Of a stretch of DNA of 51,263 bases, positions 33,665-43,784 are shown one piece after another. The stretch's first letter is position 1. Every line of letters begins with the position of its first letter. Under the pieces are notes generated by a model that worked only from the letters and a program-made list of their open reading frames with translations, was not told where the DNA came from and made no database searches. The stretch is taken from NCBI GenBank assembly GCA_002898235.1, contig BEIL01000002.1, forward strand, positions 1-51,263, read 5' to 3'. Origin of the DNA: a bacterium HR35. Lineage in GTDB: Bacteria > Patescibacteriota > Minisyncoccia > UBA6257 > HR35. The position numbers and the translations under genes are program-made.

Positions 33665-33988
33665 TTGTTAAAATTAAATAGGGAAAAATTTAAGATGAAA
33701 ATAGTTTATTATTTGAAAAATTTAAAAAATCTACCTCAAGGAGTTGTTGATTTTATAAAAAGAAAATCTAAAAAACTTGAAAAAATAGAGGAGAAAGAAG
33801 GAGAAGGAATTTTAGAAATAGAGCTTAGAAAAGATAAAGAGACCAAAGAAAAATCTGGAATTTATAAAGTCAAAGTTATTTTTGATACTCCTAAAAGAAC
33901 AGCAAATATTATTTGGGGTTTCGGGAAAAATTTTTATCAAGCAATTAATGACGCTTTTAAAAAACTTTATCGTTCTTTAAGAAGATAA
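33665..33988 (+). CDS. HPF/RaiA-like ribosome-associated protein (likely start 33695)
   Basis: 'MKIVYYLKNLKNLPQGVVDFIKRKSKKLEKI...KVKVIFDTPKRTANIIWGFGKNFYQAINDAFKKLYRSL'. Confidence 0.65.
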   Translation: MLKLNREKFKMKIVYYLKNLKNLPQGVVDFIKRKSKKLEKIEEKEGEGILEIELRKDKETKEKSGIYKVKVIFDTPKRTANIIWGFGKNFYQAINDAFKKLYRSLRR

Positions 33989-35707
33989 TTCTTTAAGTTT
34001 CTTCCAAAAATCAATCACAAATTTTTGATAATCCAATTTATCTAAAGCAATGTCATCTAATTTTTCTTCCATCAAGGCAGTAAATTTCAAGTCTACAAGT
34101 TCAGGATATCTTCCTTTTAAAAATTTATAAACAGCCTCACCTTTTTCAGTTGGTTTTAAAAAATTTTTTTCTTTAATAATATACTCTCTTTTCTTTAAAA
34201 TCTCAATAATTGGTACATAAGTTGAGGGTCTACCAATTCCTAATTCTTTCATTTTTTTAATTAAACTTGCTTCATTAAATCTTGATGGAGGTTTTGTTTC
34301 TACTTCTTTAAATTGAAATTCTAAAATATTAAAATTTTCTTTTTCTTTAACCTCTGGTCTTTTGGAGAATTTCTCTTTAACAGGAAAAATTTTAGCAAAG
34401 CCATCAAAAATTAGTTCTTTATTTATAGCTAAAAACAAAATAACGGACTTGTTCGGACTTGACACGGACTGTTCGGACATATTATTTTGTCCATTCTGTC
34501 CCTGCATAGTCTGTGTATAGTTTGTGTTCTGTCTAAATCCAGTCCGTGTGTCGTCCGTGTGTCGTCCGTGTTCAGTCTGCGATTTGAATAAATATTTACT
34601 TTCTAAATACTCTAATGGTTTAAAATGACTAGCAATTGTTACCATTAAAATTAATTGCCAAAGCTTTAAAAAATCTTTAGTTAAATTTGGTTTTTCTAAA
34701 GAAGTAGGTCTAATTGCCTCATGAGCTTCAAAGCTAATTTTTTCTTTTTTGCTTCTTGGCAAAGAAAAATAATTTTTACCATAATTTTTTTCAATAAATT
34801 CCTTTATCTTTAAAGAAAAATTTTTATTAATTGAATGACTATCAGTTCGATGATAAGTTATATAACCAGCCTCAAATAATTTTTGAGCAATAAACATTGT
34901 CTTTTTTGGAGGAAATTTTAAAAATTGATAAGCCATTCTTTGCAAATTTTCAGTATCTAAAGGAAGTGGTGGATAAATTTTCTTTTTTTCTTCAAGAATT
35001 TTTTCTAAAGTTAAATTTTTAATTTTTAAAATCTCTTTTTTTAGTGATTCAAGTTCTTCTTTCTTTAAATTTAAAATTTTTAAATTTTTATCAACCAAAA
35101 CTAATTTCAGAGGAAAATTTTCTAAAAGAGCATAAACATTAAAATATTTTTCTTTTTTAAAATTTCTAATCTCTTCTTCTCTTTCAATAATTAATCTTAA
35201 AGCTGCTGATTGAACTCTGCCAGCAGATGAACCAATTTTTTCTTTCCATAAAATTGGTGATAAAGTATAACCAAAAATTCTATCTAAATATCTTCTTCCT
35301 TTTTGAGCCCTCACTAAACTTTCTTTAATTTGAGTTAAATTTTTTAAAGCTTGGTAAAAAGCAGTAGGAATAATTTCATGAACAAATATCCTTTTAATTT
35401 TTGAATGCTCTTTTTCAGGTAAAATCATTTTAATTTCATAAGCAATCATTTCTCCCTCGCGATCAGGATCAGTTGCTAAAATTATTTCTTCTGCTTTGGA
35501 GCTTAAATTTTTAATTCTCTCGATTATTTTCTTTTTACCTTTGATTGGTACATATTTTGCTTCAATTTGATTATTTTTTAAATAAATTCCAAAAGAATTT
35601 GGGGGTAAATCTAATAAATGTCCATAAGTTGCTAAAACATAATAACCTTTTAAAAATTTCCTGATAGTTTTTGCTTTTGTTGGTGATTCAACAATTAAAA
35701 GCTTCAT
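33977..35707 (-). CDS. topA: DNA topoisomerase I (no C-terminal zinc fingers; contains low-complexity insertion)
   Basis: 'LLIVESPTKAKTIRKFL', 'TDPDREGEMIAYEI', 'SAGRVQSAALRLI', 'GYITYHRTDS', 'RFNEASLIKKMKELGIGRPSTYVPII'. Confidence 0.95.
   Translation of the reverse strand: MKLLIVESPTKAKTIRKFLKGYYVLATYGHLLDLPPNSFGIYLKNNQIEAKYVPIKGKKKIIERIKNLSSKAEEIILATDPDREGEMIAYEIKMILPEKEHSKIKRIFVHEIIPTAFYQALKNLTQIKESLVRAQKGRRYLDRIFGYTLSPILWKEKIGSSAGRVQSAALRLIIEREEEIRNFKKEKYFNVYALLENFPLKLVLVDKNLKILNLKKEELESLKKEILKIKNLTLEKILEEKKKIYPPLPLDTENLQRMAYQFLKFPPKKTMFIAQKLFEAGYITYHRTDSHSINKNFSLKIKEFIEKNYGKNYFSLPRSKKEKISFEAHEAIRPTSLEKPNLTKDFLKLWQLILMVTIASHFKPLEYLESKYLFKSQTEHGRHTDDTRTGFRQNTNYTQTMQGQNGQNNMSEQSVSSPNKSVILFLAINKELIFDGFAKIFPVKEKFSKRPEVKEKENFNILEFQFKEVETKPPSRFNEASLIKKMKELGIGRPSTYVPIIEILKKREYIIKEKNFLKPTEKGEAVYKFLKGRYPELVDLKFTALMEEKLDDIALDKLDYQKFVIDFWKKLKELSS
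34443..34581. repeat. 11-bp-periodic inverted repeat array (GTCYGTGTNNN / ACACGGACNN) inserted in frame in topA
   Basis: Units at 34498, 34509, 34520, 34531, 34542, 34553, 34564 (gtccctgcata, gtctgtgtata, gtttgtgttct, gtctaaatcca, gtccgtgtgtc, gtccgtgtgtc, gtccgtgttca); reverse-oriented CGGAC at 34444, 34454, 34465, 34474. Confidence 0.92.
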
Positions 35708-43481: not shown

Positions 43482-43516
<35 letters not shown>

Positions 43517-43784
43517 CATATCTGTTGCCCGCGTTTGGAAGCCTGAGGGGAGCTGGTCCTAGTACGAGAGGACCGGACTGGGGCAGCCTCTGGTGTACCA
43601 GTTGTTCCTCCAGGAGCATCGCTGGGTAGCTATGCTGCCACGGGATAAGCGCTGAAAGCATCTAAGCGCGAAACCCACCCCAAGATTAGGCTTCCTTTAT
43701 TAGCCCCCAGGAAGATCACCTGGTTGATAGGCCCCTACTGGAAGCTCGGCAACGGGTTGAGGTTAGGGGTACTAATGGGCAAAA

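Follow-up and report, generated by a model that had tools for sequence, protein, structure and literature searches.

An in-frame palindromic array in topA of a small bacterial genome as a probable gene-less copy of a mobile element linked to GxxExxY nucleases

The window, i.e., the whole stretch of 51,263 nucleotides analyzed here, belongs to a low-GC genome of 0.6 Mb (bacterium HR35, hereafter G000; G002, G003 and so on denote relatives), whose size, GC and genes point to a Patescibacteria-type lineage, and carries topA, the gene for DNA topoisomerase I, on the minus strand at positions 33977–35707. The open reading frame encodes 576 amino acids with Pfam matches to Topoisom_bac (E=2.6e-102) and Toprim, and the closest fold in the PDB is that of E. 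coli TopA. Within this gene we detected a palindromic-array insert that holds no gene of its own (34439–34579, minus strand) and that adds 46 codons in frame (amino acids ~378–423), corresponding to 138–141 bp of palindromic DNA with facing arms. The 5' arm in the topA reading sense consists of eight 11-bp units in register (34498–34585, plus strand), which run GTCCCTGCATA, GTCTGTGTATA, GTTTGTGTTCT, GTCTAAATCCA, GTCCGTGTGTC twice, GTCCGTGTTCA and GTCTGCGATTT. It is faced by the 3' arm, four CGGAC units at 34444–34478 (plus-strand starts at 34444, 34454, 34465 and 34474, spacing 10/11/9), the opposing GTCCG motifs starting at 34542, 34553 and 34564 on the same strand. A central stem-loop, GGACATATTATTTTGTCC, lies at 34474–34492 (plus strand; RNA/DNA fold, read from the sequences), and a similar core was also read in other G000 copies. 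The initial annotation had placed the array correctly, and the addition of about 45 amino acids without a break of the frame is borne out. It had listed seven GTCYGTGTNNN units at 34498–34574; the 11-bp register holds and extends to an eighth unit, but the motif is looser than described, with an exact GTCYGTGT in four of the eight units and the others degenerate.

The array is far above chance level. The real topA contains seven CGGAC/GTCCG motifs within 150 bp against a maximum of three in 5000 codon shuffles, and the insert differs from the remainder of the gene in GC content (0.48 vs 0.24), in agreement with the unusual composition noted at the outset. It also folds more strongly than expected as RNA (z=-4.4) and more weakly so as DNA (z=-2.8). 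Elsewhere in the window, a GGAC cluster at 43509–43584 was considered as an array and rejected, since its sequence resembles 23S rRNA, and a perfect 9-bp tandem repeat (CAACAACCA, 6.7 copies) lies at 40–99.

In the TopA of three relatives (G003, G004 and G014), the insert is absent, and a short turn joins the same two strands where G000 has its extra codons. The nearest TopA relative, that of G002 (84% identical), has an insert at the same site, although filled by a different array, of facing CCGGAT-type units (ACCCGGATnnnACCGGATA and its complement). Neither amino acids nor units are therefore kept at this site, and the opposite outcome, a conserved peptide with a lost DNA repeat, is not what the alignment gave; it is the facing-array architecture that the topA sites of G000 and G002 have in common. 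No target-site duplication could be discerned at the topA insert, its host flanks having diverged, and no junction stem was seen by eye at the element ends. The AlphaFold model of the G000 TopA has a mean pLDDT of 86.6, with residues 379–420 below 50 and situated between beta-strands 365–376 and 424–434; the insert is thus predicted to loop out, disordered, at the turn of a beta-hairpin. This position was modelled for TopA alone, while the loops of the other hosts discussed below (LepA, RecG, E1-beta, copper ATPase and Dtd) come from reading the host sequences.

The topA insert has matches at three places in its own genome (C1:67968–68095, C2:60338–60500 and C4:7496–7697), the first of which (C1:67968; 85% identity over 86 bp, E=3.6e-22) sits in a transketolase-type E1-beta gene. 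At C2:60338–60500, the array is nested in the intein region of a ribonucleotide reductase (class II), so that one selfish element sits within another. A census of unit runs gave 28 runs (~18 loci) in G000, mostly in open reading frames, against none in every control, and a de novo count of facing arrays over the whole genome gave five against 0–1 in order-3 Markov controls. The hosts of ~11-bp facing arrays include topA, a pyruvate-dehydrogenase-type E1-beta gene, the ribonucleotide-reductase intein, NDH-2, a Mur-ligase-like gene and others. These copies in unrelated genes, together with related arrays dispersed in other genomes, support the earlier suggestion of a mobile mini-repeat family. 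One further unit run (G000:C4:17197–17232) falls in a copper-ATPase-like gene, in the portion coding for membrane segments; read in the frame of the units, it gives a hydrophobic peptide. G000 also has an open reading frame of ~1163 amino acids with DEAD helicase and topoisomerase domains (C1:158241–161732), reverse-gyrase-like and suggesting a thermophilic host; its homologue in G002, of 1232 amino acids, carries an array insert.

In G002, facing arrays number at least 57; one contig alone holds 57, against 0–1 in controls. Only 15 of the 57 lie within open reading frames although the contig is 90% coding (P=8.6e-31), which points to strong purging from genes, in-frame survivors excepted, and many copies are intergenic. 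A motif-free comparison of 408 reciprocal best hits likewise recovered tens of in-frame inserts of 15–58 amino acids in G002 proteins, built from several unit types, and the array spacing in this genome alternates between 11 and 13–14 bp. The E1-beta gene is present in two copies in G002 (C1:461675–462703 and 408481–409497).

The E1-beta site gives a fuller view of these inserts. In a family-wide alignment, the linker that joins the two transketolase domains holds a gene-less GGAC array in G000, and the same linker in G009 and G012 holds, all in frame, an arm peptide, a domain of ~116 amino acids and a closing arm peptide. This domain is GxxExxY (TIGR04256, E~1e-33; PF13366, PDDEXK_3), of the PD-(D/E)XK superfamily, with the PD...E-x-K pattern visible in its sequence; the two inserts contain no Hint splicing or intein domain, only GxxExxY/PDDEXK_3. 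The arm-GxxExxY-arm counterpart was thus seen in relatives for the site of another coding G000 copy and not for topA. The sole GxxExxY detected in G002 is flanked on both sides by CCGGAT arrays that face each other and have the unit type of that genome's gene-less loci; the surrounding frame reads as a D-aminoacyl-tRNA deacylase (Dtd-like), a name taken from reading the sequence and not from a family search. No GxxExxY gene was found in G000; its array copies therefore have no visible driver there and are most plausibly relics or imports.

GxxExxY is present in 86 of the 245 genomes of the order. It was also found in 48 of 100 Lentisphaerae-related genomes, sampled from the class to which an Oligosphaeraceae MAG belongs. 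Across the order, ~45 of the ~150 matches listed lie in open frames longer than 400 amino acids (counted by eye), with hosts read from sequence as LepA, RecG, a copper P-type ATPase, NDH-2 and E1-beta. The reading frame is open across both junctions in every host-embedded case read. The LepA site is empty in the G000 allele, and the RecG proteins of G000 and G002 align without the gap. We found no literature on GxxExxY as a mobile element or on its flanking arrays, and nothing relevant on the repeat sequence, on in-frame palindromes in CPR genomes or on PDDEXK_3; of the two papers found to use the name GxxExxY, one does so for a gene reported by a pipeline in place of cas4.

Bracketing of GxxExxY by short-unit arrays is general, and their orientation is not always inverted. 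For 40 GxxExxY loci, we compared the 260 bp on either side and counted the bases covered by exact inverted 8-mer matches; at least 16 bp were matched at 30 of 40 loci against 9 of 35 distant flanks (p=2e-7), and inverted matches of this length outnumbered direct ones (30/40 vs 15/40, p=1e-4). The Lentisphaerae-related sample replicated the effect (23/28 vs 8/21, p=7e-5), near-direct matches also being frequent; loci were treated as independent in these tests though phylogenetically they are not, so that all p-values are descriptive. Three loci (L309, L315 and L307) have flanks with direct, not inverted, short-unit repeats, e.g., GACGCAAAG or ACACGAAA. Autocorrelation near GxxExxY gave weak peaks at lags 10–12 (0.300, 0.279 and 0.295 vs 0.268, 0.247 and 0.290 far away), a result on which we place no weight, minus-strand loci having been left unturned.

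In a tree of 36 GxxExxY domains, host-embedded copies tend to cluster away from stand-alone ones. Five copies at the LepA site, which come from three families, group together with support (98/95), and the two E1-beta copies of G009 and G012 are not grouped. At the LepA site, the element ends are an inverted copy of the adjoining host sequence, with left stems of 8–12 bp in six of seven cases and right stems of 11–12 bp in six of seven, against a background in which stems of at least 9 bp occur in 0.7–1.1% of random windows. The paired positions of these junction hairpins co-vary between species through compensatory changes, in alignments of four and five sequences picked after the palindromes had been seen. 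Such stems could have arisen by fold-back synthesis as the element inserted, or could reflect selection for a hairpin.

The facing-array architecture also occurs outside the phylum of the window. Within the phylum, a three-unit CGGAC search of 381 genomes returned G000 only, plus scattered chance-like matches. Among GTDB genomes, the exact three-unit ACACGGAC pattern was found in 103 stretches, mostly from one Lentisphaeria MAG (JAQVUB01, L165–L244) in which near-identical facing arrays occur on dozens of contigs; the other matches were in Oligosphaeraceae, Bacteroidales and some Streptomyces and Nocardia, the runs of the last two resembling simple tandem arrays. No ACACGGAC arrays flank the single GxxExxY gene found in the Lentisphaeria MAG. 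Its arrays are often at contig edges and may fragment the assembly.

Based on these observations, we propose that the topA array is probably one of the gene-less copies of a mobile palindromic element; the full form would have a GxxExxY nuclease, and persistence would come from in-frame translation in surface loops. The arms of such an element would be two facing runs of ~9–12-bp units (here ACACGGACNNN and its complement), between which full versions would carry the GxxExxY PD-(D/E)XK protein. In G000, the element would have landed in TopA at the turn of a beta-hairpin, keeping the frame and bringing no stop codons, and since the insert would be translated as a flexible loop of ~46 amino acids, TopA should still work and the element should escape purging. 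DNA cleavage by the nuclease would drive the spread, with gene-less copies left behind or moved in trans. The sequences show dispersal, in-frame insertion, presence or absence among relatives, recurrence of sites and bracketing of GxxExxY by inverted arrays, and structure prediction gives the loop position; cleavage as the driver, movement in trans and a TopA that functions with its insert are what we infer from them. Because unit sequences vary from one genome to another, the argument for a common descent of all arrays is one of architecture, not of alignment.

An origin of the arrays in place, by slippage and template switching at a hairpin, would leave them immobile, with GxxExxY genes merely settling there. 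It would account for units that vary between genomes and are homogeneous within loci, for both arms at the topA site differing between G000 and G002, and for element ends that repeat the neighbouring host sequence inverted, as expected from fold-back synthesis; but G000 has copies with a similar core in unrelated genes, at the identity given above for the E1-beta copy, and the Lentisphaeria MAG has near-identical arrays at many contigs, so that we regard this origin as unlikely. Improbable to a further degree is that the insert is missing from the mature protein through removal of an RNA intron or ribosome skipping aided by junction hairpins. The open frame through both junctions would be needless for RNA removal, the topA insert lies in a predicted loop where read-through should be tolerable, and the E1-beta inserts lack an intein domain, against which stand the pairing of the arms in RNA and the LepA-site hairpins that join host flank and element end at both junctions with compensatory changes.

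Two further explanations have very little probability. Elements of the REP/BIME type, mobilized by a Y1 (RAYT) transposase, would also be small palindromic repeats and often intergenic, as many are in G002, but a PF01797 protein is absent from G000, G002 and most of the family, being found in G011 only, and the arrays are made of facing 11-bp units, not of single palindromes of 20–40 bp. Least probable of all is a supercoiling-sensitive or regulatory element specific to topA, as the initial annotation had also suggested from the location in a gene for a supercoiling enzyme and from a period near one helical turn; topA is one host among many unrelated genes with the same arrays, the topA of most relatives has no array, and the spacing in G002 departs from a constant 11 bp.

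The proposed mobile element resembles several known systems in part. Rickettsia palindromic elements (RPEs) measure ~100–150 bp and are dispersed in a small genome; many of them interrupt conserved genes of unrelated function without breaking the frame and so add a short peptide to the product (reviewed in PMC10969869). The palindromic topA element falls within this size range, and the G000 arrays likewise lie in frame in unrelated genes (topA, E1-beta, the ribonucleotide-reductase intein and others). They differ in that the arms are arrays of ~9–12-bp units varying between genomes, that the same host site recurs across genera, and that fuller versions carry a GxxExxY nuclease, whereas no nuclease partner of RPEs was found in the literature consulted. 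The likeness, drawn by analogy, is thus one of mode, and the topA element would not be classed as an RPE. With homing endonuclease elements and inteins the full elements share a nuclease domain in frame in conserved proteins and at the same site across genera (LepA, RecG), but they have no splicing domain, their arms are short-unit arrays, gene-less copies spread too and the inserts are apparently in loops. MITEs and REP/BIME elements are similarly short, non-autonomous, palindromic and multicopy; here, unlike in MITEs, no transposase-type ends were recognized. No target-site duplication could be discerned next to the diverged host flanks, and the REP/BIME partner transposase is lacking as stated above. 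The GxxExxY family itself, whose domain the full elements contain, is already named and modelled. Judging from the sequences, the unit-array arms, the nuclease partner and the recurrent sites appear new relative to the literature found, while the mode of life is already known from RPEs.

More broadly, and with somewhat less than even confidence, we hypothesize that GxxExxY proteins are the homing-type nucleases of widespread in-frame elements with facing short-unit arms. In candidate-phylum-type genomes, these might insert at fixed sites within loops of core genes (LepA, RecG, E1-beta, Cu-ATPase), their ends taking on an inverted copy of the adjoining host sequence, and leave gene-less arrays such as the one in topA. 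If true, this would provide a function-level hypothesis for a family with almost no literature and account for the short-unit facing arrays around its genes. Tolerance of selfish DNA within coding genes, for which Rickettsia is the best-known case, would extend to other streamlined genomes, the inserts lengthening core enzymes there, and the hypothesis predicts host-protein loops that tolerate insertions of 40–170 amino acids.

The comparison of TopA sequences gave one further observation. Both members of family f26 (G041:C1:79655–81304 and G059:C31:14715–16358) have in-frame TGA codons in TopA (2+1 each), which suggests that this lineage of the order decodes TGA as an amino acid.
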